From: Telopea speciosissima
Taxonomy: Eukaryota > Streptophyta > Magnoliopsida > Proteales > Proteaceae
DNA: 64,000 bases
Assembly (NCBI RefSeq): GCF_018873765.1
Contig: NC_057924.1
Location: 2,108,001-2,172,000 of the forward strand
Direction of reading: 5' to 3'
Below the pieces are notes generated by a model that was given only the letters and a program-made list of their open reading frames with translations, was not told the DNA's origin and made no database searches. Shown here piece by piece: positions 3,096 through 52,961 of the stretch (positions within the stretch are counted from its first letter, which is position 1; each line of letters starts with the position of its first letter). A program made the translations under genes and the position numbers.

Positions 3096-3104
3096 GATAT
3101 TGAT

Positions 3105-4455
3105 CTCTAATTGAATTGAATTGGGTAATACGGTAGAAACATCTAATTTTTTATTGAAAAAAATGATATTTTGATCTTGTATCTATCTGATTCGATCTAA
3201 TACACAATTAATACATATCGGTATCGACGATGACCGATAAATCATTATTGTGAGCTAGGAGAGTCTTAAGACAGTAGAGTGGTCTTTATCCAAAGCTGCT
3301 TATGATTTTATGCATCCTTCGCTGTTAGGGAGATACGATAAACCTTGTATAGGTGTATTCTTGCCTCTTGGATGATCGATTATGAAAAGTTCAAGGTCCT
3401 AGAGCTATGGTATTTTTAAATTGGAATCGAATTGGTTGAATGGACTGACATTATTTAATTTTGGCATTCTAATAAATATATAATAATGGAAACATTTAAA
3501 TAAATTTGATTATTTATTATATTGTAAAAACTTATTTTCTGAAATTAAATAACAATTTAATGGTTTTACTTAAAAAAAATTCTTAAAATTAAACAATTTT
3601 AAATGGAAGTAGTAGAGTTGATGTATCGACCATGACATCTAAGACAACACTAAATCACAAAATCTTTGTCTTTCAGATAATTAGTTCACAAAAATAATAA
3701 ATCTCTAATATAATTAAGTATCCTAATCACTTGTCTACCATGACCATGATGACTTTTCAACATGTTGATATGGTGTCTTTTAGATTTTATTGAAAAAGTA
3801 GTAGTGTTTAAATGATAAGGACCTTGAAGAAACAAGGGAAAATTTGCATTCATTAGATTGAGATAGATCATTAAATCCTACATGAGATTTCGTGTATATA
3901 TTTCAAAGGAAAGCGCTTCTATAGGGGAAGTGTGGCTCCTGCGCACACGGGGGCCAATGGGAGAATGCATGCAGGCAACAACAGGGGCGTCATTCATGGG
4001 AGAGCAAGGCAGTCATTTTGCCTCCCTTTGTGTCTGAACTCTCCCTCACTAGAAAATTTTCTCCATATTTCAAAGGGAAAGAAAAGTTCTCTGAACCATT
4101 GGAGTATGATAAACTAGCATTTTTATGTTTATCTCTCTCCTCATACGAAATGACCTCCCTCCCCTGTCATGTATGATACTCTTTTATTGCATCTCATTGT
4201 TGCATTTCGGTGTACCACTTGCGCAAAGAATCCTTTCCATATTTCAAATCATCTTATCCACGTGGGGATTGGGGGTGGGGGTGCGGGTAGGGGGGCAGAC
4301 ATGTGAAAGAGGAGGAGACTTTGTGGTTTAATGTTAATTTTAAAATGGGAGTATTACTGGCAAAAAAAAAAAAAACTTGGGGGCGGAGTAGTTTTGTTTT
4401 TTGTTTTGAGATGTTACGAAGGAAAATCAAAAGGGGGATACTACGTGTAGAACTA
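3105..4455. other. Upstream part of duplication copy 1, no gene seen
   Basis: Aligns with 23193-24156. Copy 1 holds about 250 bp near 3370-3625 that copy 2 lacks; whether this is insertion or deletion is unclear. The portion at 3900-4330, a conserved stretch around GTGTGGCTCCTGCG and CACGGGGGCC, looks like a dispersed repeat but has no clear ends. No supported ORF. Confidence 0.6.
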
Positions 4456-4624
4456 GGAAAATTATCGTCTCCATTTATCAGCCCCTCTATTTACTCTATT
4501 TCATCTAATAGGGGGGAGTGGACCCCACCCAGGCAGTGTGTTCGGGCAGGGAATTGGGTGGTCATTTATGCCCCCCTATGAGATGAAATGGAGGGGCAGA
4601 TAAATGGAGTCAATAAAGATCCGA
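4456..4624. mobile_element. Small MITE private to copy 1
   Basis: About 169 bp with inverted ends: the left arm reads CTCCATTTATCAGCCCCTC and the right arm in reverse complement reads CTCCATTTATCTGCCCCTC. It is flanked by AGAACTA on both sides (4449-4455 and 4625-4631). Copy 2 has the uninterrupted site, GTAGAACTAAGGC, near 25168. The 7- to 9-bp target repeat suggests a hAT or MULE derivative; the superfamily is not settled. Confidence 0.75.
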
Positions 4625-4780
4625 AGAACTAAGGCTTGAAACCGAGACCTCAAGTGGCCTAAGTGCTTGCCTTGCTAGCCCATTTTTTGCTGCGCTAGGT
4701 AGTTGTCTCGAACGAGCTATTACTTTCCATGTTTCATCCAGTACAATGATCAATTGGGGTTGTCTATCTTCTTCTACTTC

Positions 4781-5266
4781 TCTATCGGAAAAAAAAAAAA
4801 AAAAAAAAAAAAAAGGGAGATCTAATCTCATATGCTTAACAAAGAATTTTTCTTGAAACTCTTAGGCTTTGTACGAAGTTTAGCTGGAGATGGAGCTCGT
4901 GCCCTCTAGTGTTTGAAAAACACCAGTAGCGTCTGTGTTGCATCTAATTGATTGCTCTTTCTTCGATTGAGCATTGATACTTGTGGAGTCTCTCTCAGCT
5001 GGCGTAAGTCACAACTGAGCCACTGCTCTTTGGGGGAGACAATTCCTAAACTTGGCTTCGAAGGAGCAACCTTGGTTGAATCGCTTTTTTCTTTTTCCCG
5101 GTATGTAGCTCCACAAGCTAGGAGTGCATCATCGGGGCAGGGCGAAAACGGTCGAATATATCGGAATTGGATCCCAATACTAGCTGCTGCCTAAAGGTGC
5201 TTTATGAAAGCCGATCCACAACAGTGAAAGTATGATTGATTCCGTCGATCGAACAAAAACCGCTTC
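4781..5266. other. 486-bp filler insertion of possible organelle origin
   Basis: Copy 2 reads CTACTTCCTAGTTT without interruption near 26337, whereas copy 1 has 486 bp between CTTC (4777-4780) and CTTC (5263-5266). There are no terminal inverted repeats and no longer target duplication. Apart from a 26-bp A run near its left end, the insert is more GC-rich than its surroundings and looks unlike nearby repeats. End joining of a captured fragment (mitochondrial DNA is one candidate) is inferred, not shown. Confidence 0.45.
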
Positions 5267-5697
5267 CTAGTTTAACTTAAAAAACCAAATGTAAGGGTGG
5301 TTAAGTAGGGTCTATAGTAGGGGTGTCATTTTCCAGCCCGAACTGGTTGGACAAATAGAAGACGATAGGAAAATGAACCGAACCCTTATTGGCTTTGGTT
5401 TTCATTAAATCAATAGGAAATTTAACCAATACCAAGAAAACCCAATAAAAGAACATTATAAACAATCCCAAAAATGGATCAATAAGAACCCGTAAAATCA
5501 ATCCAATCAAGACCGAACCGAACCAGGCCGACTAAGAACTAAATTTGGTCTAATACTAGACCGAAACTGATCAACTCAATTGATATCGAATCAGACCGAT
5601 TGATACCCATAGTGGTCCATGATAGAAAGGTCATGGTTTATCAGAATTGGATAATGGCCAAGACAGTGATGGACAAACTGAAGTATGTATCCATGCG

Positions 5698-6070
5698 TAA
5701 GGGTTTCAAAAGCAAACGAAACCATATACCAAAATCGAATCGAATCGAATCATTTAAATTGAAACCATAAAACCATTTAATAAATGATTCGATTATGGTT
5801 TCAAAATTGAGGCCGTTTAATTAAATGACGAATAAACCTTGTAATTCGCTTAATTATGTATAAATATAACAAAATTTTACCCAAAAATAATAGAAATAAA
5901 TGTAAAAAAAGAAACCGTTTACTGAGACTGAGCCGAACAATTTAAAATCAAAACCGTGAAACCGTTTAATAAATGGTTCGGATATGATTTCAAAATTGAA
6001 ACCGTTTACTTAAATGATTTAAATCAAACCGGATCATTTAACCGAAACAAACCGTTTAACACCGTTATAG
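5698..6070. mobile_element. hAT-like MITE private to copy 1
   Basis: Flanked by the 8-bp direct repeat TCCATGCG (5690-5697 and 6071-6078), the length typical of hAT elements. The left end starts TAAGGGTTTCAAA and the right end in reverse complement contains TAACGGTGTTAAA. The interior is AT-rich, with repeated ACCGTTTAA and ACCGTTTAC strings and no transposase. The exact right end could shift by a few bases. Confidence 0.65.
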
Positions 6071-6510
6071 TCCATGCGGCATTCGTTAGTGCTAGACGAA
6101 ATAGACATGACAGTAAATCTCAAATATCGTGGGGAAGTGGCACAGCGTGTAGCGCATCATCTGATGGTCTGCAGTGCATGAGCATGCAGTTTAACTTACA
6201 GGTGGGCTGTTAGGATGCGTGCCCGTGCGTTGCAGGCCGTCGAATGTGCGCCACACGCTGTGTCGCGCTACAGAGGAGCCCCACGCAAAACACACCAGGT
6301 CCCTCTCCTCAGCATATTCAAATCCAATGCATATCTGTCTCTCTCTCTAACTTTGCAGATTAGGGTTTCCTTTACGGCACAGTCTCGTTATTTTCGGGGC
6401 CAAAAATTCTCCAACTTTCAGGTAAGGAGTCTTAACAAAATCTGATTTGCATATTTGCATATTTGCATACCCTTGAACGAAACATATTTGCATATTGTGG
6501 GGGGAGAGTC

Positions 6511-8598
6511 ATGGATGAGGGTGACGGAGGAGATCGAAACGAAGCAATCTCCGCAGTGGCTGACGAAGGTTTCTTGGGGGAAGAGGATGACGACTACGAA
6601 GATCTTTACAACGATGTTAACGTTGGGGAAGGATTTCTTCAGTCTCTCCGCAGCAACGAGGATGTGGGCTTCAGAAACGGGGAAGCGGACAGGAAGATCG
6701 AGTCGGCTGCTGAGTCTAGGGGTGTTTTAATCCCTGGGGTTCAGGATACCACTGCTGGTGGTGGTGGTGGTGGTGTTGTCGAGGTTGGAGAAAGTAAGTT
6801 TGAACAGGATGTTGGTGCTTCGGGACTGGTAAGTGTTACTATGGCTCCTGCTAGAGTAGAGGGCTTTCAGAATTTAGGGTTTAGAGGCAATGAGTTAGCA
6901 CCGAAAGGGTCGGTCCCTGTATCGGCAGCTGCTGGTGGTGGTGGTGGAATGAGGGTTTCTTTGGGCCCTTCATCCGGTAAAATGGTTGAAAATGAAGTGC
7001 AACATGTTAATAATTCTATGCCTTCTCAGGGAATGACTCAGCAATCTCAGATTGTAGGCTTTGGGAACGTTGCCAATGAGGGTTATGCGAGGCAGCCAGG
7101 AGGGGGAGGGGGTGGAGTGGGTGGAAATGCAAATGCTAGTGGCGGGTCTGGGGGTGCCAGTGGTGGTGGTGGGACCATTCTTTTTGTGGGTGATCTGCAT
7201 TGGTGGACAACGGATGCTGAGCTTGAGGCAGAGCTCGGGAAATATGGGGCTGTGAAGGAGGTGAAATTTTTTGATGAAAAGGCAAGTGGGAAATCAAAAG
7301 GGTATTGCCAGGTTGAATTCTATGATTCTGCCACAGCAACAGCTTGCAAGGAAGGGATGAATGGGTATGTCTTTAATGGGAGGCCATGCGTCGTGGCCTT
7401 TGCTTCACCATATAGTGTTAGGAGAATGGGAGAGGCCCAGGTGAACAAAAACCAACAAATAACCCAGACCTCTCTTGCTCCAGGGAGAAGGGGAGCAGGG
7501 GATGCTGGAGGTAGAAGTGGTGGAAATGCCATTGCAACAGGTGGGAATTATCAAGGTGGGAATTATCAAGGTGGAGATGGGAGTAGAAATTATGGTAGGG
7601 GCAGTTGGGGAAGAGGTGGTGCCCAAGGAATGGGGAATAGGGGGCAAGTTGGCCCAATGCGAAACAGAATTGGTGGGATGAGTGGGAGGGGTATAATAGG
7701 CAATGGTGGTAATGGATTTGGACAGGGGATCGCAACACACCCACCCTTGTTGCATCCCCAAACAATGATGAATCAGGGTTTTGATCCAGGTTATGGAGCA
7801 CATATGGGGAGGATGGGTGGTTATGGAGGTTTCCCAGCTCAACCAACTGCTCCTTTTCCAGGGATATTGCAATCGTTCCCTCCAGTTGGTGGTGTGGGTT
7901 TGCCTGGAGTGGCTCCTCATGTTAATCCAACATTTTTTGGGAGGGGCATGCCAACAAATGGAATGGGGATGATGCATACTACTGTTGTTGAGGGACACGG
8001 AATGGGAATGTGGTCAGATCCTAATGCAGCTGGATGGGCTGGTGATGAGCATGGTGGGAGGGCAGGAGAGTCTAGTTACGGAGATGATGCTGCATCAGAC
8101 CCTCAGTATGGAGAAGGAAGCCATGAGAGAGGGGGGTGGCCTAATGCAGTGAAGGAGAAAGAGAGAGCCTTTGAGCGGGACTATCCAATGAAGGAGAAAG
8201 AGAGGGCCTTTGAGCGGGACTGGTCTGGAGCTTCTGACAGAAGGTATCGAGATGATAGAGAACCAGGATCAGATAGAGATATACCAAGGGAGAAAGATAT
8301 GGGTCATGATCCTGATTGGTCAGAAAGAAGGCATCGTGAGGATAGAGAAACTGGTCGAGACCGGGACCGAGACAGGGAACGAGATCGTGAGCGTGAGCGG
8401 GATCGAAATAGAGATGACAGAGACAGATACTTGGATCATCACAGATACAGGGACCGTGAATCTGAACATGATGATGAGTGGGACAGAGGAAGATCTTCCA
8501 GGACCCACAGCAAGTCACGTCTGTCTCAAGAGGAAGATCAACGTCCAAGGTCAAGGGATGCTGAATATGGGAAGAGACGGCGGCTACCCTCAGAGTGA
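6511..8598 (+). CDS. RRM protein with Arg-Asp/Glu-rich tail, CFIm68/CPSF6-like (copy 1)
   Basis: Predicted nuclear RNA-binding protein of 695 residues in one exon. The ATG at 6511 is preferred over the in-frame one at 6463 because the acidic MDEGD start matches what I recall of the plant family. An acidic N-terminus (residues 1-60, with LYNDVNVGEGFL) is followed by Gly-rich linkers, one RRM at about 223-299 (RNP2-like ILFVGDL, RNP1-like KGYCQVEF), a Gly/Pro/Met-rich middle, and an Arg-Asp/Glu tail at about 600-695. This architecture resembles the Arabidopsis At1g13190/At5g55670 group, related to the large subunit of cleavage factor I in pre-mRNA 3'-end processing. The role is inferred from architecture. 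Copy 1 has a 13-residue tandem repeat (547-559 and 560-571) absent from copy 2. The frame is intact. Confidence 0.93.
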   Translation: MDEGDGGDRNEAISAVADEGFLGEEDDDYEDLYNDVNVGEGFLQSLRSNEDVGFRNGEADRKIESAAESRGVLIPGVQDTTAGGGGGGVVEVGESKFEQDVGASGLVSVTMAPARVEGFQNLGFRGNELAPKGSVPVSAAAGGGGGMRVSLGPSSGKMVENEVQHVNNSMPSQGMTQQSQIVGFGNVANEGYARQPGGGGGGVGGNANASGGSGGASGGGGTILFVGDLHWWTTDAELEAELGKYGAVKEVKFFDEKASGKSKGYCQVEFYDSATATACKEGMNGYVFNGRPCVVAFASPYSVRRMGEAQVNKNQQITQTSLAPGRRGAGDAGGRSGGNAIATGGNYQGGNYQGGDGSRNYGRGSWGRGGAQGMGNRGQVGPMRNRIGGMSGRGIIGNGGNGFGQGIATHPPLLHPQTMMNQGFDPGYGAHMGRMGGYGGFPAQPTAPFPGILQSFPPVGGVGLPGVAPHVNPTFFGRGMPTNGMGMMHTTVVEGHGMGMWSDPNAAGWAGDEHGGRAGESSYGDDAASDPQYGEGSHERGGWPNAVKEKERAFERDYPMKEKERAFERDWSGASDRRYRDDREPGSDRDIPREKDMGHDPDWSERRHREDRETGRDRDRDRERDRERERDRNRDDRDRYLDHHRYRDRESEHDDEWDRGRSSRTHSKSRLSQEEDQRPRSRDAEYGKRRRLPSE

Positions 8599-8809
8599 CT
8601 GAATGCTCTGAATCTGGTCAGCTGGATAATCAAATTCTGAATTACATGGGATCTTCATAGTCATTCATTTTTAAATACATAGTTTTGTGGACGTTTGTGG
8701 TCTTTTGAGAATGCTGTCCCCGTTGTACCAGTAAGGACTTCATTGCCTACGATCTCTTGCTGAAGCATATTCTAGCAGGAGTGCGGGTTAATTATCATAA
8801 TGGTGAAAA

Positions 8810-9455
8810 GTAAGTTCAATACTTGAAAATTTTTATTCTTCAAATATTCTCTTATGGTTTTTCCGGCTGTGTAGTTTTCCAATGGTCATGACACTTTTTC
8901 ATATTAATCCTCCCACTTTTTCTTAACCAATGCTGTGCTATGATGTGCATATTTTAATTACTTTTTATTTGCATCTCTGTTAATTTTTTGGAGTGGCTAA
9001 AAATGCACACTCCATAGTCGCAGCTACAGTCTCTGTTTGGAGGTTCTGATGCTCTGCTTCTGTGCCTACAAACCAGCAATTACATATAGTTACATTAGTC
9101 CTCTGTCATTAAGCCTTTTTTTGGAGAACTAAGGATTAGTGTTTGATATGGGAAATAGAAGTTGTTATCAGTGCAACTAAAATCTTGAACATTCAGTTAG
9201 TCTATTGTTTTGTGGTTTAATTAGAAAAGCATTATTATTAAGCTGAATTTAGCCCCATTGATAGGAAATTGAATGACAGAACCTTCTCTTCTTTTTTCAC
9301 ATGAAAGCATGTCACTGATATTTAAACACAAAGAAATGCACATTCTGATTATGTCCTATGAGCATTGGATCTGTATGATGAACTGGAGTAATCTAGTTGT
9401 TATCTTTGATGAATTAGAAAATCCTGGTAAGAGCCAAAATTAAATTTTCTTACAG
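8810..9455 (+). other. Candidate intron in the 3' UTR of RRM gene copy 1
   Basis: A strong donor (GAAAA|GTAAGT) lies about 210 nt past the stop codon. A strong acceptor (TTTTCTTACAG) ends at 9455. Both sites are kept in copy 2 (29076 and 30083) although its intron has taken up a MITE. A splice junction more than about 55 nt after a stop can mark an mRNA for nonsense-mediated decay in plants. Splicing is inferred from site quality and conservation only. Confidence 0.5.
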
Positions 9456-10471
9456 TGTGACCTTGCTCCAGCTGTATAGCATTGGCTGTTGGGTTTATTT
9501 GGGGATGATTGGACATATCCGGCCTTTTTAAAGGACCAAAGCTGCCTGACAAGTTGAACCTTTTGATCAAAAGGGAAGATTCTGTGCAAGATTGATCCAT
9601 TTACAGTATGATGTTTTGGAGGAAGAGGAACAACTGCAAGCCTGAAGTAAAGGTGCTATCAGTTGATGTGGTGGAGAGCAATGGCAACCTTGTAATTTGG
9701 GTTCCAGTTTCCACTGTTAAAAGAATTTGTGGGATCAGCTATACATCTTTTTGTTAAAATCAGAATGAGTGCATCGACGGAGAATGTTAGGATTGTTGGT
9801 CCATCATTGTATTATTAGGATTTTTTTTTTCCCCATCATTGTATTGGTAGAATTTTTTGGGCCATCATTGTAAAATCTGGATGTAGTTCTTTTGCTGTTC
9901 CTTTTGTGTGAGCCTTTGTATACAGGGCTTGACCCTTCATATCTCCCATACAATTGTATTCGTCAGTTGGAACATTAAGATGGCTCGGATGTTCTATCAT
10001 CTGTCTGTTTTTTAGCATTTGACGTAGATCTTTTGCAGTTCCTTATGTACAGTTTCAACCTTTGTATATGGGCTTTGCCCCTTCCTACATCTAATAGAAT
10101 TGTATTGTTAAAAAAACAGAGGATATGACTTAGCATTCTGTCATCTGTCTTTTTCTTGCCTATCTTTGTCATTGGCTCTATGATTTTACATGCTGTACTG
10201 GAAGCTTCATATTCTTTTTGTTTGCCCAGCTAGTTTTTCTTAAACTTAATTGTCATGAAGAGTTGGTGGATTTTCTGTGTGGATGGCAGCTAAAATTAGG
10301 GTTCTACCTGTTTACTTATCTGCTTTTCTTCCCAGTTCTATTTGGTGGCGGTTCTTCTCTCCACTCTCTCTTTGTTCATTTGTGCTGTAATTTTTCCGTC
10401 TTTTCTTTAAGTTTTTGGTCCTATTTACATTTTATTTTCTATGCGTTGTTCTCATTTTGATGTGGGTACAG

Positions 10472-10533
10472 GTAATATTCGACCTAATAGTTGATGGGCT
10501 TATGGAAACTGATCAAATCAAGTTCACACGGAG
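10472..10533 (+). other. Possible internal exon of an unrecognised gene, copy 1
   Basis: A 62-bp open segment lies between an acceptor (GTGGGTACAG) and a donor (CACGGAG|GTACAG). It reads VIFDLIVDGLMETDQIKF and ends in phase 2. The segment at 20922 could join it in frame. The copy 2 equivalent is 31066-31127. Short length and lack of a known homologue keep this speculative. Confidence 0.3.
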
Positions 10534-11265
10534 GTACAGATGGAAGTAGTATTACTCTCTAGGGTTGTAATATTGGGCGTTATTAACTCTAAAGCTAAAT
10601 AATTAGTTTAGATAGAATAAGTATAGAGGAATTCGATTGAGAGAATGTTCAGCATCTTGGGATTTAGGAACAGAATAAAAAAATGTACTGAAACTTGAAA
10701 AATTACAACGAATTTGAAGGGCCAAAAGCATTCATTGCGGTTCAATCATGTAGACTTTTGCTGAGAAGGTTGAACTTCTTTAAGATTTCCCAGAATTTTC
10801 AGCAAAGGAACAACATATGCTCACTGAGCAGCATGTTATCCAAAAACTAGCGAAACATTTTATTTATTCAGAAAACAGATTTAGAACTGCAGAATAGCTG
10901 AAAACATGTTCAGATTGACAGAACATATGTTCACCGAGAAGGAAAGAACATATGTATCCAAAAATTAACGAAAAATTTTAGTTATTCAGAAAACAGATTT
11001 AGGACTGTAGAATAGCAGAAAACAATAAGGTTAGGACAGAAAAACACGTTCAGGCCGACAGAATAAAAAAATAACAGTAACAGATAGAAAGCGAGGCAAG
11101 GAATACTTAAATTAGATGCAAAATAGGGAATCAATTTAGAAGAGAGTTATGGCATGCTTCTTCTCAAAAGAACAACTTTATCTCTTCCAAATCTCTCCCA
11201 CTAGTGTCTCGAAATCTTTTACTAAAATTAACTTTCCAAAATATACTATGAAAGTAAAAGAACTC

Positions 11266-12440
11266 TGATGCAGCACCATGTGCCCCCACCTGAAGGAACA
11301 AGAAGAAGAAGCAGCCCTGAAATTAGGGCTTAGTTTGGGAGCCATAGCTTAGGTGTACATTTACTAGGTTCTATACTTAGTTTTATTTCAGCTTATTTGT
11401 AAACTTAAATTGAACCGGTTTAAACCATGGTTCAATTTAAGTGATTTAATTAAGTGTCTTTTGTTTTTAGTTATTAGGGGTAGATAGGACTTCTAACCTT
11501 TTAAAAATTTAAGTTGTTTTAAGTGAGGGAAGAGTTTAATTTGTATTAGGATTTGGCCTGTGGCCTTTTATTATAAAATTTCAAATCGTGGGAGGCTCCC
11601 CCACAAGTTTTATGAATTAAAAAAATCGTGTTTGCTGCCATTGTTGCTGCTGCTGCTCCTTGTGAGTGTTTGCCTTGTTGTTCTATCAAGGAAGAAAGGG
11701 TTGGTGGATCTCTTACGACTCCTTACACCATGACAGCTAGGAGGGTCCCTAAGATTGAAGGTGGTTCTATCCTTCTCCATTGTTCAAGCTCATCTTCAAG
11801 CTGCTGTTACTGGAATTCTGCAACATCCAGTAAGTTATTTAATTTTTTTCTGCAACATCCCTTCTTATTCTAATCCTCCAATCTAGCCCTAACCCATCCC
11901 CATCAATCTCCACTAAAACCTAGGTTATCTAGGGACTGTTCAGCCCTATTCTACCGTCCATATCCTTTCAAACTTCAAGCATAACACCCCCGCAGTAGCC
12001 CCTACACTTGATTCAGATTGCTGCCCCCATTCCTAGCTCAAAACCCTAAAATCCCCTCATCTCTACAAAACCCCAAATCCGTCCTAGACCTAACTAACCA
12101 TCAGAATTGCACCAAACCACAGCCGAACCATCCCCTTGTTGCCCCTAGGACTCGGCTAGAACCCCTGCCCAGAATTCCCACTCCAAACCTTAAATTCACC
12201 CTTTTTCCTCATTTTCAAAACCTGAAACCCTAACCCTAAATTTCTGAATTTTAATTTTTTAATTAAAACTTCATCAAACCTATACCATTAGCTTCTCCTA
12301 GACCTGCCTATTAAAACCATATAAAATTTGACCCCATTCTCATAAACCTAACCCTAATTTTGCCCATTTGAACCAGCAGCCCCCTTTTGATCCTGTTGCT
12401 TGGCCTCTGGCAGGATCCTTCTCCTATCTAGAGCTACATT
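11266..12440 (+). mobile_element. Solo LTR, probably Ty3/gypsy-type, fossil
   Basis: A 1175-bp segment starting TGATGCAGCACC and flanked by GAACTC direct repeats (11260-11265 and 12441-12446). It matches, in opposite orientation, the segment at 14732-15875; shared strings include TTTGTATTAGGATTTGG and GGAGGCTCCCCCAC. It is absent at the same place in copy 2, so it arrived after the duplication or was lost there with nearby bases. No internal region is attached. Superfamily assignment is tentative. Confidence 0.75.
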
Positions 12441-13379
12441 GAACTCCCACAACTTGGACCAATAGCCAAACTTTGATAGGTCCATTGTACTCTTATTAAG
12501 TACGAGTATTGAAGCCCCATGTTTGGGCTTGAAAATATGTAGGTTAAATGTATCCCACAGCTCTCTACCCCTCCCCAAAACCAAAAAAAAAAAATAAAGG
12601 GTTAAAAATTAGAATAAGAGAATACAAGAAGAAGAAGAGCAATTAATGATTATGATAACAATGACATTTCAGGGAATTTTTTTGGAATGTCTGTTCTCTT
12701 CAGCACTAATTGGTTAGGATTCTCAACATTCTTGGACTGGATTTGTTAGTCAAAATTGATGAGGTTTGTATTTGCCACTGAGATATTGTTCTGTTTGGAA
12801 TCTGTTCTCATTTTGTGAATGAAGGTAAGTGAGACGCAACCCTAGTTTAGAAATGTTACTATGATTGCTGAAAGGTAACATTGTCTATTACAAGTTAGGA
12901 AAAGATATTACATCTGTGTTAGTATCACCAAGAACTATGCTGCCACCATACAGGGATAAGTATTCAACTTGCAACTGTTTCCAGACATTGTGGGCTAAAA
13001 TTGGATTATTATCGGAACCCACAAACTCCTTTAGTTGATAGAGCCCATTATATTACTATAGAACCAATATCAGCAATAATTCAAGGCAAATGTTAGGTTT
13101 TGTCATGAAATAACTCTGTTCTTGTTCCTCTCCTTCCACAAGGACCAAGTAATCCAAAAGGAAGTCATCTTCAGAGTACAAGTGATTTGGGACTTGATTT
13201 ATAGTTGACTGGGTTCTAGCCGTTTTATACCAAACTTGCCAACAAAATGTTTCCAGGTATTGCATGTATACACTTCAGGAAGAGATGATTGGTCAGATTC
13301 ATTTCACATTTAAACATGGTATCAAAGTGGGGTTTTTGTCTTGGAATCCTATCCGGGAGGGTTTTGGAGTTGTTCCAAC
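12441..13379. other. Non-coding paralogous stretch, copy 1
   Basis: Aligns with 31855-32800 of copy 2 with scattered substitutions and small indels. No coding region or repeat end is recognised. Confidence 0.55.
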
Positions 13380-13827
13380 CTACCCCCCATCAACTTGGTA
13401 TCAAAGCTATGGAGAGGCGGTAGGCAAGATCGACGGTTGTTGCATTCTACTTCCAATTGAAGATTTATCATGCAAGCTTGATTCAATGATTCCATTAAAC
13501 TCGTGGACGAGTTTTGTTTCAAGATGAGGTGAGCTGATGTAGATCAAAGTTCCATATGTAGCCGTAGGAACAAGGCCCCAAAACCAGCTCAATATCGTTG
13601 TGATATTCAACTGCTGAGGGAGGCAGCCTGGTATGATGATGTGGCAGGTTTTTGTTGGTTCGATGGAGCATCACATAAGGCAGCCTAAGTCCAGATTGCA
13701 TGGTGCTAATTCAGGTTATATTTGTAGCCTTGCAAAAGAACTGATGTAGGTCGAAATATGAAGAAGAAAAGGCCAAAGCACTGATCACATGAACAGTGTC
13801 ACAGCCCATATTTGCCTTTTTGGGAAT

Positions 13828-14081
13828 TGTCAATAACAGCAAAATAGAAGAAGGGAAGGAAGAAAGAAAGAAAGAAAGAGGAAGAAGAAGAAGAAGAGGA
13901 AGAGAAGGGAGAAGATTGAGGGAGAAGGGCTGGACTCTCTAATCTAAAGAGAGTCCAGAAATCACATTAATATAAAGGGATATGTATAGGGGTAAAATAG
14001 GAAACAAATAAGAGCTTAGCGCCATATAGCTGACGCTATTCTCGAGATGGGCTATTCCCATAATACTCTTTACATCTAACA
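13828..14081 (-). repeat. 3' LTR of the copia element
   Basis: 254 bp, starting TGTCAATAAC and ending CATCTAACA on the plus strand. It holds a GA-rich simple repeat that explains most of its length difference from the other LTR. The purine-rich tract CCAGCTTGAGGGGGAG, read on the minus strand, abuts it. Confidence 0.9.
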
Positions 14082-14731
14082 CTCCCCCTCAAGCTGGAGC
14101 ATATATATCAATCATGCCCAGCTTGTTACAAATATAGTCAACCCTCCCACTTACTAGAGACTTAGTAAAAATGTCAGCAAGTTGTTCTCCAGTCTTGACA
14201 TACTTTATACAGATTACGCCCTATTGGAGTTTTTTCTCTTACAAAGTGACAATCCACCTCAATGTGTTTAGTTTTCTCATGGAACACGGGGTTCGAGGCA
14301 ATATGTACTGTTGCCTAGTTGTCACACCACAATTGCATTGGTGTAGAGCTCTCAAACCCTAGTTCAGTCAACAACATCTTCAACCAAACTAATTCACAAG
14401 TAGCATGTGCCATGGCTCAGTACTCTGATTCTGCACTCGATCTAGCCACTACACTCTGTTTCTTGCTCTTCCATGAGACAAGATTCCCTCCAACAAATAT
14501 ACAGTAGCCGGTAGTTGATCTGAGATCAATTGGTGATCCAGCCCAACTCGGGTATGACCATGATCAGTGTACACTAACCCTTGTCCAGGAGCCTTCTTGA
14601 GGTACATCAAAATCTGAATGACAGCATCCCAATGAGATGTCCTGGGAGATGACATGAATTGACTCACAAAACTCACCGGAAATGAGATATCAGGTCGAGT
14701 GATTGTCAAGTAGTTCAGCTTTCCAACCAAC

Positions 14732-23183: not shown

Positions 23184-23192
23184 GATATTGAT

Positions 23193-26034: not shown

Positions 26035-26042
26035 GAATTGGG

Positions 26043-30083: not shown

Positions 30084-32800
30084 TGTGACCTTGCTCCAGC
30101 TGTATAGCATTGGCTGTTGGGTTTATTTGGGGATGATTGGACATATCAGGCTTTTTTGAAGGACCAAAGCTGCCTGACAAGTTGAACCTTTTGATCAAAA
30201 GGGAAGATTCTGTGCAAGATTAATCCGTTTACAGTATGATGTTTTGGAGGAAGAGGAACAACTGCAAGCCTGAAGTAAAAGTGCTATCAGTTGACGCGGT
30301 GGAGAGCAATGGCAACCTTGTAATTTGGGTTCCAGTTTCCACTGTTAAAAGAATTTGTGGGGTCAGCTATACATCTTTTTGTTATAATCAGAATGAGTGC
30401 ATCTACGGAGAATGTTAGGGTTTTTGGTTCATCATTGTATTGTTAGAATTTTTTGGGCCATCATTGTAAAACCTGGATGTAGTTCTTTTGTTGTTCCTTA
30501 TGTGTGAGCCTTTGTATACAGGGCTTGACCCTTCATATCTCCCTTACAATTGTATTCGTCAGTGGGAACATTAAGGTGGCTCGGATGTTCTGTCATATTT
30601 ATTTTTTAGCATTGGACGTAGTTCTTTTGCAGTTCCTTATGTACAGTTTCAACCTTTGTATATGGGCTTTGCCCCTTCCTACATCTAATATAATTGTATT
30701 GTTAAAAAAACAGAGGATATGACTTAGCATTCTGTCATCTGTCTTTTTCTTGCCTATTATTGTCAATGGCTCTATGATCTTACATGCCGTCCTGGAAGCT
30801 TCAGATTCTTTTTTTGTGCCCAGCTAGTTTTTCTTAAAACTTAATTGTCATAAAGAGTTGGTGGATTTTCTGTACGGATGGCAGCTAAAATTAGGGTTCT
30901 ACCTGTTTACTTATCTGCTTTTCTTCCCAATTCTATTTGGTGGCGTTTCTTCTCTCCACTCTCTCTTTGTTCATTTTTGCTATAATTTTCCCTCTTTTCT
31001 TTAATTTTTTGGTCTTATTGACGTTTTATTTTCTATGCATTGTTCTCATTTTGATGTGGGTACAGGTAATATTCGACCTAATAGTTTATGGGCTTATGGA
31101 AACTGATCAAATCAAGTTCACACGGAGGTACAGATGGAAGTAGTAGTACTGTCTAGGGTTGTAATATTGGTTTAGGAACAGAATAATTCAAGTTATTAAC
31201 TCCAAAGTTAAATAATTAGTTTAGATAGAATAAGTATAGAGGAATTGGAGTGAGAATGTTTAGGAACAGAATAAAAAAATGAACTAAAACATGAAAAATT
31301 ACAAGGATCTGAAGGGCCAAAAGCATTCATGCGATTCAATCATGTAGACTTTGGCTGAGGAGGTTGTACTTCTTTGAGATTTCCCAGACTATCAGCAAAG
31401 GAAGAACATATGCTCACTGAGCTGCATGTTATCCAAAATCAAGCGAAACATTTTAGTTATTCAGAAAACAGATTTCGAACTGTAGAATAGAAGAAAACAT
31501 GTTCTGATTGACAGAACATATGCTTACTGAGCATATGTTCACTGAGAAGGAAAGAACATACATATCAAATAATTAACGAAAAATTTTAGTTATTCAGAAA
31601 ACAGATTTAGGACTGTAGGATAGCAGAAAACAATAAGGTTAGGACAGAAAAACATGTTCAGGTCAACAGAATAAAAAAATAACAGTAACAGATAGAAAGC
31701 AAGGCAAAATACTTAATTTAGATGTAAAATAGGGAATCAATTTAGAAGAGAGTTATGTCATGCTTCTTCTCAAAAGAACAACTTTGTCTCTTCCAAATCT
31801 CTCCCACTAGTGTCTAGAAATCTTTTACTAAAATTAACTTTCCAAAATATACTTGATAGGTCCATTGTACTCTTATACAGTACGAGTATTGAAGCCCCAT
31901 GTCTGGGCTTGAAAATATGTTGTTAAATGTATGTACACCCACAGCTCCCCCCCCCCCCTCTCTCTCTCTCCCTAAACCAAAAAAATAAATAAAGGGATGA
32001 AAATTAGAATAAGAGAATACAAGAAGAAGAAGAAGAAGAGCAATTAATGATTATGATAACAATGACATTGCAGGGAATTCTTTTTGAATGTCTGTTCTGT
32101 TCAGCACGAATTGGTTAAGATTCTCAACATTCTTGTACTGGATTTGTTAGTCAAAACTGATGAGCTTTGTATTTGCCACTGAGATATTGTTCTGTTTGGA
32201 ATCTGTTCTCATTCTTTGAATGAAGGTAAGTGGGACGCAACCCTAGTTTAGAAATGTTACTATGATTGCTGAAAGGTAACAGTGTCTATTACAAGTTATG
32301 AAAAGATATTACATCTGTGTTAGTATCACCAAGAACTATTCTGCCACCATACAGGGATAAGTATTCAACTTGCAACTTTTTCCAGACATTGTGGGCTAAT
32401 ATTGGAATATTATCAGAACCCACAAACTCCTTTAGTTGATAGAGCGCATTACATTACAATAGAACCAATATCAGCAATATTGCAAGGCAAATGTTAGGTT
32501 TTGTCATGAAATAACTCTGTTCTTGTTCCTCTCCTTCCACAAGGACCAAGTAATGCAAAAGGAAGTCATCTTCACAGTACAAGTGATTTGGGACTTGATT
32601 TATAGTTGACTGGGTTCTAAGCTTCTAGCCCTTTTATACCAAACTTGCCTACAAAATATTTCCAGGTATTGCATGTATACACTTCAGGAAGAGATGATTG
32701 GTCAGATTTATTTCACATTTAAACATGGTATCAGAGTGGGGTTTTTGTCTTGGACTCCTATCCGGGAGGGTTTTAGAGTTGTTCCAATCTACCTCCCATT
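29588..32800. other. Paralogous downstream region of RRM copy 2
   Basis: Aligns with 8964-11260 and 12460-13380 of copy 1. It lacks the solo LTR and about 50 bp around that insertion site. A 60-codon open frame at 30236-30418 is also present in copy 1, but there it ends early, so it is not called as a gene. A possible exon at 31066-31127 is listed separately. Confidence 0.5.
31066..31127 (+). other. Possible internal exon of an unrecognised gene, copy 2
   Basis: Counterpart of 10472-10533, with the same acceptor, donor, length and phase and one residue changed (Asp to Tyr in LIVYGLMETDQ). Conservation of frame and splice sites is the only support. Confidence 0.3.
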
Positions 32801-33370
32801 AACTTGGTATCAAAGCTAAGGAGAGGCGGTAGGCAAGATCGACGGTTGTTGCATTCTACTCCCAATTCAAGATTTATCATGCAAGTCTGATTTAATAATT
32901 CCATTAAACTCGTGGACGAGTTTTGTTTCAAGATGAGGAGAGCTGATGTAGACCAAAGGTTCATACGTAGCCGTAGGAACAAGGCCCCAAAACCAGCTCA
33001 GTACAGTTGTGATAACTGCTGTGGGAGGCAGCTTGGTCTGATGATGTGGCAGGTTTTTGTTGGTTCGATGGAGCATCACATAAGGCAGCTTAATTCCAGA
33101 TTGCATGGTGATAATTCAGGTTATATTTTTAGCCTTGCAAACGAATTGATGTAGGTCGAAACATGAAGAAGAAAATGCTAAAACACTGTTCACATGAACA
33201 GTGTCACAGCCCATATTTGCCTTGTTTGGGAATACTTTTTAGTAGATCTGGTGGGCCCCTTGGCTAGCTGTATGGAGGATGGTTTGAAGGTTAGTTGCGT
33301 TGAGATTTTTATCCCAAGAGATTGAGCTGTCGAGATAATTTAGGAACTCAGTTTGTCTTTGCATGGGTGG

Positions 33371-34315
33371 AGGCAAAAGTCGAGTTCTAGGGTCAAAAAC
33401 TACAATTTCTGACGAGATCTCGAGATCTCGAGATCTCGCGAGATCTCGGTGATATCTCGAGTGAAATCATGGTTTTTTAGTACAAAAACCAATATCTTGA
33501 GAGATCTCGCGAGATCTCGCGAGATCTGGTTGGCCCAAAGATGCTAGTTAGTTGTATTTAGCCCAATTTTCACCCAAAAACCATTTCCAACATAAGAGAG
33601 AGCAGAACGAAGTTCTTAGGCTCTAAACCAAGGAAAAACCTCTCCTTCAAATTTCTTCTTCTTTCTTTCGATTGTTGGATGGAATGCCTTGTTTGGAGTT
33701 AGATTGAAGTGCCAAAGTGAAGATTCAAGTGCCAATTTGGAGCATCATCACCTATTTGCAAGATTTCAAAGGTGTTTTCTATTTCTTCCCAAATCTATTT
33801 TTTCAAAAAAAAATTTTGTAATCCTTGTTAGATTCATGTGGTTTTAATATATGTTGAACATCTTTGCCGATCTATCACTTCATGGAGTCGGATTTTTTTG
33901 TTAATAAATTATTCAATCTCATTTTATGTAACAAATTAAGTGAACATTGATGTAATGTACATTTTATTTGAATGTTTTGATTGATGTGTGCTAATTAGAA
34001 TGTTTTGATTGCTAATTTGCTATGTTTTACTAAATTATATATAGATTATGTTGTTTTAGACTTTTAGTCGACTGTGCTACCAACCTATGGTCAGTGAAAC
34101 TCATATTTGGACTTGTTTTTTTGGCAAATCGGGCATGCCATTGTGTTTAAATGGCACGAAATAGCTGGATACCAAGTTTGGACCCAAAATATGTACAACC
34201 CCACCGAGGTTGGGAGTCAGGAGTCCAAAAAAAAAAATTGTCGAGATCTCCGAGATCTCGCTCGACTCGGTTTACGGCCTGCGAGATGCCACGAGACCGA
34301 GTTCTCCGAACCTTA
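33371..34315. mobile_element. Palindrome-rich insertion of unknown class, private to copy 2
   Basis: 945 bp absent from copy 1. Its left part (33410-33530) is packed with CGAGATCTCG and CGCGAGATCT palindromes, and its right part (34238-34300) repeats GAGATCTCCGAGATCTCG. Both borders carry an imperfect direct repeat of about 40 bp, from GTCGAGATAATTTAG to TTTGCATGGGTGG (33329-33370 and 34316-34355); copy 1 has one such unit near 20394. The middle is AT-rich, with no coding sequence. The long flanking repeat fits no standard transposon class. Confidence 0.6.
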
Positions 34316-34560
34316 GTCGAGATAATTTAGAACTCGGTTGTCTTTGCATGGGTGGACTTAGTATTCGTTTTAGTTTCTATTTTTAGATTAGATTAGTTTC
34401 TAAATTCCAGGACTCTTTATTTTGCCAACTAATGGGGTTGGATTTCTTTGTAATTGGTTTATTATTATGACAAAGTCTAGGGGTTTCTTTTCCGCTGAAG
34501 AAAAGAGTTGTTTTTATGTAATGGGTAGTTTCAATTTTTAGGATTCTTTATTTGTTAGTT

Positions 34561-37500
34561 TTTTTTTTGGGTGAATCAATGAATTTATTACCAAGGAAAA
34601 GAGAAACAAGGGCCCCCTTAGGGGGAAACAACAGCCAATGGCTAAAGAAAATCAGCTAGAGCCAGCTGAAGAAGAGAAAGAAACATTTGGGACACCCCAG
34701 GAGACAACAATTAGCCTGTTCCTTGGGGTGTCGAAACAAAAGGAGGGACGAGCTGACAATAGTTTGGAGGAGATTTCAAAGGAAATGGAGTCCCAAATCT
34801 GTTGATAAGAACGAGAATTGGAGGTCTATTTCCTAATATTTCGCTCCATCCAGATGTGATTTAGCGCAGCACAGAAAGCCATCTTCCCCACAGTGTCACA
34901 AATAGAAGCCCCTCGGAAAGTCATATCTATCCAAATCCATTCTCTAGACAAAGGGAGAATACTTCTCTGGGCGGGCCAGCACTTAGCTAGAATACCTTTT
35001 CAAATGGCTTTGGAGGTCGGGCATTCAAAGAAAAGATGATCCGAGTCTTCCAAGTTGTTCCAACAAAGGCAGCAAGCATTGGTAACTTGTATGTGACGCC
35101 TGCGGAGGAAAGCAAGGGTAGGAAGACAGTTGTTGAAGACTCTCCAAGCAGTGAAGGAATGGCACGGAATATGATGCTTAAACCAGAGGAGCTTCCTCCA
35201 ACCAACCAAAGGGCCTTTGGATTGGATAAGATTCCAAGCTGCCTTGGAGGAGAAATTCAGCAAACCATCAGCTGTCCAGGAGACACAGTCACCTCTAGAA
35301 GGCAGTCTTCTTTGGATGGATAGAAGGTCATTCCAAAGAGGAGAGAGAGACTGGGAGGAGGAAGGGGGAGGAGCCCTCTCATTGAGATGAAGGATGTCTG
35401 CAACAAGAGCCATTCTGTGAAGGCCTGAAGCATAGATCGTCCTTGGCGTGACAAGGTGCAAAAGGATCCCTTTAGGGTGCCAGTGATCCAGCCAAAGGGA
35501 GGTAGAGAGGCCATCTCCAATGCGGGAGTGGATATAGGAGAGAGCAAGGTGGTGGGACTCCAGGATCTTGCGCCAAACCCAAGAAGCATCAGTGGAGACG
35601 GAAGCAGTCCAGATGGAGTCTTGCCGAAGAATCCTCGAATAAATCCAATCAACCCAAATGCTCTTCTGTTTAGAAGCAATCCTCCAGATGAGCTTGATAA
35701 TACCAGCCTTGTTGACTTCTTTGATTCTTCTTATGCCCAGCCCTCCCTCCATTTTTGGGAGGCACACAGAAGCCCAGGAGGTGGGGTGGAGAAACCTGGA
35801 TGTCTCAGCTCCCTTCCAAAGAAAGGAAGCAAGCAAAGATTCTATGGACTTGATGGTAGCTTGCGGGAGACCAAAGATTCCAGACCAATAGATATAGGAG
35901 GCTTCCAAGGCAGATCTGATAAGGACCAGCCTACCCGCATAAGATAGGAGCTTGCCTTTCCACAACTGCAGTCTTTTTCTCATGAGGCCCAGCATGGGGG
36001 TGCAATGGTGAGCAGTCAATCTAGCCGGAATCAAAGGAAGGCCCTGGTACTTGATAGGAAAGTGCCCCTCTTGGAAGCCTGATTTGACAAGGAAGTCCCC
36101 TTTGTGAAGCTCTGGAAGACCCGCAAAGAAGATAAGGGACTTGGAGGGGTTGATGCGCAGACCTGAAAGCTCATGGAATTGCTGCAGGCAAAGCATAATG
36201 CACTCGAGAGAAGCAATGGAAGCCTTTGAGAAAATCATCAAGTCATCAACAAAAGCAAGATGGGTGAGCTTTAGAGCTTTGCACTTCGGAATAAGGGGGA
36301 TAAGCTACTGATCAGTACATGTCTGAATTTGCCTAGAGAGAACTTCCAAGGCCAAAGTGAACAAGTATGGAGAAAGGGGGCACCCTTGCCGAATCCCTAC
36401 AGAAGCTCCAAAATAACCTGTAGGACTGCCGTTGATAAGGACCGAGAACTTTGGGGAGGAGATGCAACAACTGATCCAGTGAACAAAGGGGATAGGGAAC
36501 CCCATCTTGAGCATGACTTGAGAGATATAATCCCACCTTAAAGAATCAAAGGCCTTGTGAATGTCAATCTTGAGAAGGATAGCTTGCCCATGGTTTTTCC
36601 TGTCAAAACCTCTAACTATGTCATTAGAGAGCAAAATGCTGTCAGAGATGTTTCTTCTTGGGATGAAAGCAGATTGGTTGTCACTGACCAACAGATCCAC
36701 AACAGTCTTGAGTCTTCTGGCTAGGATCTTAGCAATAAATTTGTAGAGGATATTGCATAAGGCTATGGGCCTAAAGTCATTCATAGCCGAAGCACCATCC
36801 TTTTTGGGGATGAGGCACAGGAAAGTATGGTTGACCCCATTGATCTGGCTGGGATTGTAGAAGAAGCTTTCAATGGCTGCAATGAGATCCAATTTGATGA
36901 TGTCCCAGGTAGAGAGGAAGAACCCCATGTTAAAGCCATCTGGCCCAGGAGCACTAGACACTTTAAGGGAATGAATAGCTGCCAAGATCTCATCTTCTTT
37001 GGGGATGGAGCTAAGGACATCAATGTGACTGGAAGGAAGGAACTTGTTGAGTAAATGGCTGGGCAGAGGAGTATCTCCCATCGAGGGGGCATTGAAGATG
37101 CCCTTGAAGTGCTGAACAGCCAGGTCCTTTATATCCTTGACAGTTGTAGCAAGAGAACCATCATTGGAAGTGAGTTGAGTGATGGAGTTTGCATTGACAT
37201 TGGCCTTGATAGAACGATGGAAGAAAGCAGTATTTGAATCCCCCAACTCAAGCCATTTGATCCTGGATTTTTGCTTGAGGAAGCTCTCTTCCTGTGAGAG
37301 CAAAGAAGAAAGCTCAGCAGAAATAGTCTTCTCGGCTTCAGCCAAAGAAACATTGTGCAAATCTGCCTGCAGCTGAATTTGAACATTAGCCAATCTCTCT
37401 TTGCACTCAGTAACTTGGAGAGAGATATCCCCAAAGGTGCTTCTATTCCAAAGCTTGAGAGCTTCCTTGACATTGCGGAGCTTTCTGGAGAAGGCTATAA

Positions 37501-38390
37501 GGGGAGAGGAGAAAGCCAGCACAGGTTTGGACCAAGCATTCAGAACCGTGGGAATGAAGGTTGAGTGAGAAGACCACATGTCAAAATACTTGAAGGGTTT
37601 GGGGCCAAAGGAGATGTAAGGCTGGATGGGAAGGGATATAGGGGTATGGTCAGAAATGCCTGGACTATCAAAAGAAGCCTGGGAGGAAGGGAAGGAGGTG
37701 AGCCAGGCTTCATTGACTAAGACTCGGTCTAGCTTGCAACTGATACGGTGGCATCCAGATCTTTTGTTGCTCCAAGTAAGAGGAAAGCCTGTCCACCAAA
37801 GATCATTGACCCCAATGTCATCAATACAAGAGTTGAAACTGTCCATAGCCTCCAAGTCGAGATGATTGCCACCTTGTTTTTCATGACTGAAGCGGATGAC
37901 ATTGAAGTACCCTCCCAGGCCCCAAGGAAGAACACCAATACTGCTGGCAGTGGCACACAGGTCATCCCAGAGAAGAGATCTTTGGATGTGGCAGTTGAGA
38001 GCATAAGTGGCAGTGAAGAGAAAGGAGTCAAGGCCTGAAGGATCAGAGAATTTAAGGTGGAGAAATTGGGAGGAAGAGGAAAGAAGGGAGATGGAAATTT
38101 TTCTAGGATCCCAAATGACCCAGATACGGCCATTTGGATGGGAGGAATAGTTAGAAAGGAGGGACCTGCCAGGGGCGATGGACAAGAGGATATTTGCAGC
38201 ATTTTGCTCCTTGATATGAGTTTCAAGGAGGCAGCAGAAAACAAAGCGAGAGGAGCGAATTTTGGAGTGAACGGTGGCTTGTTTCAAGGCAGAGTTAAGG
38301 CCTCGAGAATTCCAAATCAGGCCTTGGATCATTAAGGAAAGGGGAGAAGGGGCAGGGGGGACTCCAGGAGTCTAGCCATTAATGGCTTTA
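34561..38390 (-). mobile_element. L1-type LINE, 5'-truncated at the start of ORF2, private to copy 2
   Basis: Minus-strand element of about 3.8 kb inserted in the LTR fossil; copy 1 has the empty site near 20636. The poly-A tail appears as a T run at 34559-34568, next to a typical plant L1 3' end. ORF2 (38332 down to 34652) would have 1226 codons in one frame: endonuclease about 1-230 (WNSRGLN, LLETHI, SDHTPI), reverse transcriptase about 470-720 (DFRPIAL, LLKIDIHKAFD, RQGCPLSPYL, FVDDLMIF) and a zf-RVT region near 1050-1110. Three in-frame stops interrupt it (36302-36304, 35000-35002, 34826-34828), with no net frameshift. The endonuclease GGDFN motif reads GGYFN (Tyr142). ORF1 is missing. 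The flanking TTAGTT repeat is short and uncertain. Confidence 0.92.
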
Positions 38391-38686
38391 GTTAGATTTC
38401 TATTAGGATTTTATTTTATCTCTAGAAGACTATGATGTAGTCGATTTGAAGTTTATAAATAAAGAAAAGAGGGCTGAAACAGCCAAGTTGAGTTTGGAAA
38501 AAAAAAGAATGAGCTTGGTTAAAGCCATTAATGGCTGTGAGAGACAGCTCCTGTAAGAAACAGGTACAGAGGCCGTGGGTGAGAGACCCAAGGGAGAGAG
38601 TGAGAGGCTCAATCCAAACTATCATTCTTCTATCCTCTTCTATTTTTTTTTTTTTAATCTTTTATTCCGATCAATTTTAGTGACAG

Positions 38687-38759
38687 TTATGCCCTGAAAG
38701 TTGCTGATCTGCTGAAGACTATTCGAAAGACTGAATCAGCCATTGGAATTGATGTTTGA
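38687..38759 (+). other. Possible terminal exon of an unrecognised gene, copy 2
   Basis: Counterpart of 20922-20994, with the same acceptor position, phase and stop. Two residues differ near its start (Val to Ala, Pro to Ala). It would be separated from 31066-31127 by about 7.6 kb, mostly fossils. Confidence 0.3.
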
Positions 38760-38854
38760 TTGTTGCATGAAGGCTTAAGAATATCAGTACATTGATCCTA
38801 CTGTAGTGTGGTTCTTAGTTGAACTTCTTCTACATTAAATTTGCTAGACAGTTG

Positions 38855-40202
38855 TAAAGAAACAAAGTTGAAAAGAATGTGGGTTCAAAGAAGAATAGAA
38901 GGATTATAGTAATCCACCTATCTAATCTACTCTGCCTGAGAGAATCGATCTGCAAAAACAATTCATCCTGTGGGTGTAATATGCTTGGTACAGTCCTATG
39001 TATGTCCCTTTTTAAGATCATTGGCTTCTTAGAATGTACTGTAGGTGTTTGTTGTTTAGGTACTCTCTGCTTTTTCTACTTTGCCAGTTGTTTGGTATGC
39101 TTTTTTTTTATCAGATAAGAATTTGTTAAGCAAAATGAGAGAATGACACTGAGCTTAACAGAGAGGAGAGCCACCAGGTTAAAGTCTTTCCGCCAAAACA
39201 GTCATATTCTAGCAGTTTTAGCTATTTGCATTTTTAGAGATAGACTTGAAAGAGGAAGACTCATAGTATGTTTTAATATCTTGTACAAAATTCATGATTC
39301 TCCAGCCTACCGAAATGTGAGGCTAAGGGTTGATTCTGTCTAGAACTTCTTTGGCATTGCCCAAAATGATTAGGTTCCTAAGAGCAGGTTTTTCAACAGC
39401 TTCTAGTTCCTTCAAAAACCCAAATGCTTAAATTTCTTTGGCTGACCCTTGCACTGATTTTCAAGTGACTGCTAAGGATTATCTTCTTCATTCCTGGTAT
39501 TGGTATCATTGGAAGGGGGTGGGGGTTTCGCTTTGTGTGTCATAGAGGAGGAGGGGGGGGGGGGGGGAGATCCATTGGAGGTGATTACAAGGGTTAGAGA
39601 CAGTCACTATGGAAACAAATTGATTTCTTAACTGCCCCACATACCAACGTAAGAGAGTCATTAGGAGACATTGCAGAAGATGGTGTTGGATTCTACCATG
39701 ATTTCCGCAAGTCTTCCCATGAAACAGTTTACAACCTGGACCTTTGAGGTTGTTTGGTATTTTAGGTATGTCCTCCCTTTTGGCATCACTAGCTGTTGAA
39801 GAGTAGATTGATGCACAACGTTTGGAATCTCGCATCCTCTGCTACCCCCCCACCCCCATAAAAAAAAAAAAGAAAAAGAAAATATCCTTTTGCAGCTTAT
39901 TCCTCTTGTAGTCTTGTATCATTTCCTTTTTGGTTTAACCTGTTTCGCTTTTGTGATGATGAATTAAGAGTTGATGGTTCCATGTTCTATTCTTTAGCTG
40001 ATTTCTTCTCTCTGCAGTTTGAAGGGGCATTTGGAATCCAGGAAGTGGGGCTGCTATGTCGTTGTCTTTGCATGTGGGCTGATTCTGATCCGTCATGGAG
40101 AAAGGCAGAAACTAAACCTGTAGAGGGAGAGGTGAAAGAGACATGAGAATAGGAGATTTCCAGTTACATCAATGTAGTATGAACTTAACTATCTTTGTAA
40201 TG
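38855..40202 (+). other. Near-identical tract shared with 21090-22439
   Basis: Identity is almost complete, while the neighbouring paralogous DNA differs at many sites. No gene is recognised in the tract. A patch after the acceptor TCTCTCTGCAG near 40018 is exon-like but unassigned. Confidence 0.7.
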
Positions 40203-40958
40203 TTTCCTTTTCATGATGTTCCTCATCTTTATGAAACCACATAAGAATTGTTTATTAGAGGACAGTTGTCGGTTGCATGGATTTGGAAATCGAACCAGTT
40301 TCAGCGGACCTTATTTCCAGTTACGCCGGTTATGGATGCACTTATATCTTATTCTTGACAAAATGCTCGTTCTTTTAGTCAGTAAAATAGAAAAATCAAT
40401 AAAACTTACCTCTTACAGTTAGATCCACAAGACTTGTTTAAAAATCTAAAATATTATAGATTCGTGGAAATGTTTGGTACTTCTTCATGATTCCATTTTC
40501 TAGGGTTTTGGTTGATGCTGGCTAGTTTCCAACAGAGTCCGATTCGATTTGAATCAGAGTTAATGGAGGTTGATACCATGCCTGATTCTGGGTTGTAGAA
40601 ATTTTTGTAGGTTGTGGCTGGAAGTAATGCTTGGATGTGAATGAGTTGTAATGGGGTTTGAGGACACGGTTTTTTTAATGTGTGCAGCTTTTGTATCTTA
40701 TGGTTTATATATCTTTGTTATTATTATTTTTCCTATTAGGGAATTGGAACTGTATAATTATTTTTTATGATCATTCTTGTTGCTTCCTCCTCCCTCTGCC
40801 CCAAATACTTTGAACAGTATTAGGTTCTATGGGTCTATCAGTCTGAGCCAGCTTCCCCAGTGATCATTTCATACATGGAGTGTGGAAATTTCATCCTCTC
40901 ACTGTTCATTATATATATATATATATGGAGAACAAATATTTTTAACAGTTCAAAGATA

Positions 40959-52928: not shown

Positions 52929-52961
<33 letters not shown>

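Follow-up and report, generated by a model that had tools for sequence, protein, structure and literature searches.

A block of about 12 kb is present twice, head to tail, in a stretch of 64,000 bases from Telopea speciosissima (Proteaceae; assembly GCF_018873765.1, contig NC_057924.1, positions 2,108,001 to 2,172,000 of the forward strand), referred to here as the window; all coordinates are those of the window. Each copy carries one uninterrupted open reading frame for an RRM protein, probably a CPSF6/CFIm68-like factor. The history that we favor, with a probability of roughly 0.82, is a single tandem duplication with a 4-bp junction, followed by separate gains of transposable elements in the two copies and then by a late gene conversion between them.

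Two collinear copies meet at a 4-bp overlap

The window contains zero N and has a G+C content of about 40%. This content, the NF-YB gene noted below, and the Copia and LINE elements are suggestive of plant DNA. Self-BLAST of the window produced a chain of collinear direct matches, running from 3096-3373 paired with 23184-23461 through 20635-23187 paired with 38388-40958. E values of the best direct self-matches were printed as 0.0, indicating homology far beyond chance. Self-BLAST, breakpoint reading, and piecewise alignment delimited unit 1 (copy 1) at positions 3096 to 23187 and unit 2 (copy 2) at positions 23184 to 40958, both on the plus strand; with their one-sided segments included, the units measure 20,092 and 17,775 bp. 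They are adjacent, in the same orientation, and collinear, with the right end of the block joined to its left end, as in a direct tandem duplication. An earlier note on this DNA, which proposed a comparison of the window with itself as a check, had described two head-to-tail copies of an 11-kb block. The self-comparison bore out the arrangement, with collinear direct copies meeting at 23184-23187, and corrected the size to nearer 12 kb: minus seven unpaired segments, the units are 12,151 bp (copy 1) and 11,716 bp (copy 2) long. Across ten aligned pieces there were 513 differences in 10,381 paired bases, or 505 in 10,320 when every base was used only once. Much of the remainder outside the aligned pieces consists of one-sided segments. 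An upstream stretch (4346-6291 versus 24147-26620) could be aligned in short parts only, some of them non-collinear.

The three breakpoints were compared base by base. At the left edge, ...GTGATT is followed by GATATTGAT from position 3096 (reading GTGATT-GATA-TTGAT); at the junction, ...CAGTTCAAA is followed by GATA and then TTGAT (reading TTCAAA-GATA-TTGAT); at the right edge, ...CAGTTCAAAGATA runs to position 40958 and is followed by GGAATT (reading TTCAAA-GATA-GGAAT). GATA is therefore common, on the plus strand, to the left edge (3096-3099), the junction (23184-23187), and the right edge (40955-40958), and the overlap is exactly 4 bp long. The breakpoints and the GATA overlap of the two block edges agree with the earlier note, which had placed the join at 23181-23192; the overlap proper is the narrower interval 23184-23187.

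Both copies carry an open RRM gene

The RRM gene is a single uninterrupted open reading frame (ORF) in each unit, on the plus strand, and encodes one RRM in each. Copy 1 (positions 6511 to 8598) encodes 695 amino acids and matches RRM_1 (5.8e-15); copy 2 (positions 26831 to 28864) encodes 677 and is without 13 residues of copy 1. A search of solved structures gave 77 matches for the RRM protein, the best to a poly(A)-binding protein chain (1.8e-15). CPSF6 (3q2s) was second of the 77 (1.7e-9) and had the longest coverage among the 60 matches listed, at residues 220 to 370; many other RRM proteins also matched. CFIm68/CPSF6 proteins consist of an RRM, a proline-rich middle, and a tail rich in RS, RE, and RD (PMC3287031; this and the other published sources are cited from excerpts). 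By eye, the Telopea translation has a clear RD/RE-rich tail and a mostly glycine-rich middle. Because of the 3q2s match and the fit of this tail to the published plan, the gene pair is probably CPSF6/CFIm68-like. The description of the locus in the earlier note as a paralogue pair of an mRNA-processing gene is in keeping with these results, as there are two open copies and the gene probably encodes an mRNA 3′-end-processing factor, judging by the RRM_1 and CPSF6 matches.

The coding sequences differ at 54 of 2031 aligned bases and 31 of 677 residues. Three methods placed synonymous divergence (Ks) at 0.043 to 0.051 and nonsynonymous divergence (dN) at 0.020 to 0.021. At about codons 547 to 572 of 6511-8598, the sequence KEKERAFERD occurs twice in frame in copy 1 and once in copy 2.

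Transposable elements occupy one copy or the other

Seven segments are present in one copy only, and four of these are transposable elements. Copy 1 alone carries a Ty1/Copia element (13828-20290, minus strand) with RVT_2 and Retrotran_gag_2 domains; its long terminal repeats (LTRs; 13828-14081 and 20053-20290) have 8 differences in 238 ungapped sites, a Kimura two-parameter distance (K2P) of 0.035, and its flanks, GGAAT and AGAAT, differ by one mismatch. The empty site lies near 33233 in copy 2. Found in copy 2 only are a nonautonomous element with inverted ends (TAAGGGTGTC..) and an exact 8-bp flanking repeat, CTTGGGAG (24165-25095), which we take to be hAT-like from the length of the repeat and the ends; a miniature inverted-repeat transposable element (MITE) with inverted ends and an exact 9-bp flanking repeat, TACTTTTTA (29232-29587; empty site at 8959-8967 in copy 1), presumably Mutator-like given the 9-bp repeat; and a long interspersed nuclear element (LINE) with RVT_1 and zf-RVT domains (34561-38387, minus strand; empty site near 20631-20636 in copy 1), whose probable flanking repeat is TTAGTT. 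All four elements have an empty site in the opposite copy, and of their flanking repeats two are exact, one has a mismatch, and one is probable. The hAT-like element also has an inverted relative, at 85% identity, at 52292-53210.

The K2P of the LTRs is lower than those of two long non-coding pieces from the middle of the block (0.055 and 0.065), as expected if the Copia insertion postdates the duplication.

The other three one-sided segments are not clearly flanked by any familiar type of target duplication, and loss from the other copy may be an alternative origin for each. The 248-bp segment at 3374-3621 (copy 1 only) has ATCGA at both ends; it was either inserted into copy 1 or deleted between short repeats in copy 2. 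The 1.2-kb segment at 11248-12472 (copy 1 only) partly resembles 15258-15857, where inverted relatives (71 to 73% identity) are nested inside the Copia element. The 945-bp segment at 33371-34315 (copy 2 only) has an imperfect 43-bp direct repeat on both sides, which is single in copy 1, and resembles an insertion of the repair type or an element of an unfamiliar sort. Within 33329-34356, the 945-bp segment holds repeated GAGATCTCG palindromes.

Divergence is uneven along the block

Segmentation of the paired sites, with coding sequence left out, showed that the copies differ to very unequal extents along their length. Without CG and CHG sites, a model with four segments had the best Bayesian information criterion (BIC) among models of one to seven segments, with divergences of 0.093 (3096-5354), 0.045 (5355-21096), 0 of 1220 sites (21097-22426), and 0.025 (the rest). 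Four segments fitted to all non-coding sites gave 0.118 (3096-5402), 0.057 (middle), 0.0008 (the nearly identical tract described below), and 0.034 (right end). With all sites, a six-part model had a better BIC (3392.7 versus 3399.3), owing to a 50-column patch at 20396-20447 where the alignment has visibly slipped around the 43-bp repeat and copy-1 bases were counted twice. The counts were redone with each base used once, and P values shifted little. The tract was recovered in segmentations of at least four parts, with and without CG and CHG sites.

Depending on the part compared, the copies differ by about 12%, about 6%, or less than 0.1%. Therefore, no single divergence value dates the pair, and dating from Ks alone was rejected on account of this mosaic. 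At a plant rate of about 6.5e-9 per site per year, a divergence of 0.05 corresponds to about 4 million years, and to more in a slow woody plant.

Several features of this mosaic weigh against the history of one duplication and one late conversion. The left end (3096-5429 versus 23184-26508) has about twice the divergence of the middle (145/1252 versus 252/4279; P = 9e-11), an excess unexplained by a single age and uniform rates. Region 4346-6291 has eight short matches in copy 2 (E up to 1), some of them non-collinear. Finally, the two ends of what should be the same event are unlike (24/278 versus 26/750; P = 0.0016). The left-end excess may reflect faster mutation, poorer alignment, or an older conversion of the middle. 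It is seen at CG and CHG sites and at other sites alike.

The four-part segmentation and the unlike ends are what would be expected if the copies had been homogenized repeatedly, such that the left end (about 12%) records the age of the duplication and most of the middle was reset to about 6% by a conversion longer and older than that of the latest tract. This is a possible, if doubtful, account, since the left end may instead mutate faster or align badly, with 44 of its 127 CG and CHG sites differing, and no separate evidence for an older conversion emerged. A more tentative suggestion is that conversion recurred in a position-dependent manner, with most of the block reset at least once, one tract reset very recently, and the left 2 kb escaping ever since the duplication; the Copia, LINE, and hAT-like insertions would divide the block into patches, each with its own history of conversion.

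A tract of about 1.35 kb is nearly identical

Near the right end of the block, positions 21090 to 22435 of copy 1 and their partner, 38855 to 40202 of copy 2 (both plus strand), are almost the same. One substitution in 1346 aligned sites and one 2-bp indel in an A run separate them, in contrast with 46 differences in the other 1200 sites of that aligned piece (Fisher P = 1.5e-14). The identical run covers 1099 paired columns (the inner 2-bp indel excluded); the longest run in 10,000 shuffles of the piece was 706. This is a sharply bounded tract of excess identity within diverged paralogous DNA, and recent interparalogue gene conversion is probably its best explanation. The earlier note had missed the tract, which is an addition to it.

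Strong constraint on a functional element could also keep a tract alike, and there are hints of one in a possible acceptor-plus-exon at 22250-22379, noticed by eye, and in an ORF (22047-22376) with a subthreshold match to DUF3987 (E = 0.0028; 17.4 bits versus a cut-off of 27). Likewise, copying of one unit into the other by local misassembly or polishing would leave such a tract, copied repeats being a known assembly fault. Both explanations are improbable. Only 1 of 110 sites in CG or CHG contexts differs in the tract, versus 77 of 450 in the middle; a 15-base poly-G run within the tract does not differ in length between the copies; and two ORFs of the tract have no Pfam match above the cut-off. 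From these sequence comparisons, recent conversion appears to fit better than constraint.

Misassembly is an unlikely source of the pair

We also considered whether a single locus, in a plant that was a hybrid or highly heterozygous, could have yielded the two copies as haplotypes put in tandem by the assembler, with the nearly identical tract being a stretch common to both. False heterotype duplications of this kind are widespread in older vertebrate assemblies, where a gene may appear duplicated beside itself (PMC9516828), and allelic mosaics would also give patchy divergence. Gaps between the paired copies are one sign of such errors in the same source, but no N occurs in the window. A 4-bp overlap would provide no basis for the joining of contigs, and the divergence seems high for alleles (Ks of about 0.05; 252/4279 in the middle; 145/1252 at the left end). 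An assembly artefact is thus unlikely, with only a slim chance of accounting for the pair, and we infer that the tandem arrangement is that of a real chromosome.

Formation of the junction

No long repeat spanning the three breakpoints was found when the flanks were compared with the inner edges using short words, with the top eight matches inspected for each of four pairs. The matches were short and weak and none linked the edges; the best, 40 bp at 85%, lay far from both. Probes of 106 to 110 bases from the breakpoints matched each other on the expected sides and elsewhere gave matches of 12 to 19 bp only. A repeat of this sort at all three breakpoints is what nonallelic homologous recombination (NAHR) or unequal crossing over would leave, and the earlier note had named it as the finding that would overturn its reading. 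Unequal crossing over between long flanking repeats, although named as a source of tandem duplicates (PMC11831494), is hardly credible here, because the junction overlap is only 4 bp and no long repeat common to the breakpoints was found.

A few base pairs of overlap with no long breakpoint repeat is the pattern of a microhomology duplication. It is a weak match, since at least 4 bp are shared by 1.96% (0.0196) of 200,000 random breakpoint pairs drawn from the window. This chance of about 2% is a further point against the proposed history, for it leaves the use of microhomology unproven and makes the overlap a weak indication of any such use. An overlap of 4 bp cannot separate microhomology-mediated break-induced replication or fork stalling and template switching (MMBIR/FoSTeS), alternative end joining, and classical nonhomologous end joining (NHEJ). 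The earlier note had taken the 4 bp to point to template switching or microhomology-mediated joining rather than unequal crossing over. We agree that unequal crossing over is disfavored; as proof of template switching, the 4-bp microhomology was rejected given the random expectation, and the sequence is at most consistent with any particular microhomology pathway.

The block was also examined as a candidate mobile element, and this was rejected: its first 60 bases and the reverse complement of its last 60 share 5-bp words only. There is no terminal inverted repeat at the block edges and, with the flanks examined by eye, no target duplication in the outer flanks.

Other features of the window

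A Pfam scan of nine proteins included five further unit-1 ORFs (starting at 10134, 13198, 21744, 22047, and 22879), which had no match above the cut-off; two of them had subthreshold matches, to DUF4846 (E = 0.077) and to DUF3987. A second gene in the block was accordingly rejected as having no Pfam support among these five ORFs. No RNA genes were detected at Rfam gathering scores, and ARAGORN found no tRNA. Plasmid searches gave no match, which is uninformative for plant DNA. In the right flank, an ORF on the minus strand (45753-46433) encodes an NF-YB-type transcription factor (CBFD_NFYB_HMF; 1.2e-27). Short tandem duplications are present at 57367-57537 (82 bp, about two copies, 97% matches) and at 50815-50933 (60 bp, about two copies, 100%).

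Discussion

In the history that we propose, a block of about 12 kb in an ancestor, containing one probable CPSF6/CFIm68-like gene with upstream and downstream DNA, would have been doubled head to tail by a single event. Repair of a non-homologous or microhomology type would have joined the right end of the block to its left end at the 4-bp GATA, either through replication template switching or, where sister chromatids had staggered breaks, through end joining. Both gene copies would have remained open while each unit gained transposable elements of its own, the Copia element in copy 1 and the hAT-like element, the Mutator-like MITE, and the LINE in copy 2. Gene conversion between the paralogues, at a much later date, may then have replaced about 1.35 kb toward the right end of one copy with the sequence of the other.

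Plant precedents have been published both for tandem duplication at short microhomology and for conversion between tandem paralogues, and all of these are ordinary kinds of events. In Cape Verde Arabidopsis thaliana, tandem duplications of BOR1 have 3 and 6 bp of microhomology at two junctions (PMC13037888). Like the Telopea pair, they are direct tandem duplications of a block with a plant gene, which is about 38 kb long in one line. Unlike it, they segregate within the species and affect a measured trait, whereas the Telopea pair is diverged; in addition, a third BOR1 junction carries 26 bp of new sequence, whereas the Telopea junction has none. The tandem HMA4 copies of Arabidopsis halleri have undergone ectopic gene conversion (PMC3749932). 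As in Telopea, tandem paralogues there were homogenized in segments, including non-coding DNA downstream of the gene, beside segments that remain distinct. The HMA4 study differs in having three copies, population data, and evidence of selection, compared with two copies in one sequence in Telopea, with the tract downstream of the coding sequence. Arabidopsis has two CFIm68/CPSF6 genes, AT1G13190 and AT5G55670 (PMC10839035), and resembles Telopea in this number and in the combination of an RRM with a charged, RD/RE-rich tail (PMC10839035, PMC3287031). The likeness is one of description, and the locus numbers place the Arabidopsis genes on chromosomes 1 and 5, in contrast with the local tandem in Telopea.

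The birth junction of this duplication is still legible at the level of single bases after divergence of about 6% or more. The pair also illustrates the problem of dating duplicates from one divergence value. Finally, if the gene is the polyadenylation factor that it is likely to be, the presence of two open copies could matter for the choice of mRNA 3′ ends in this plant.

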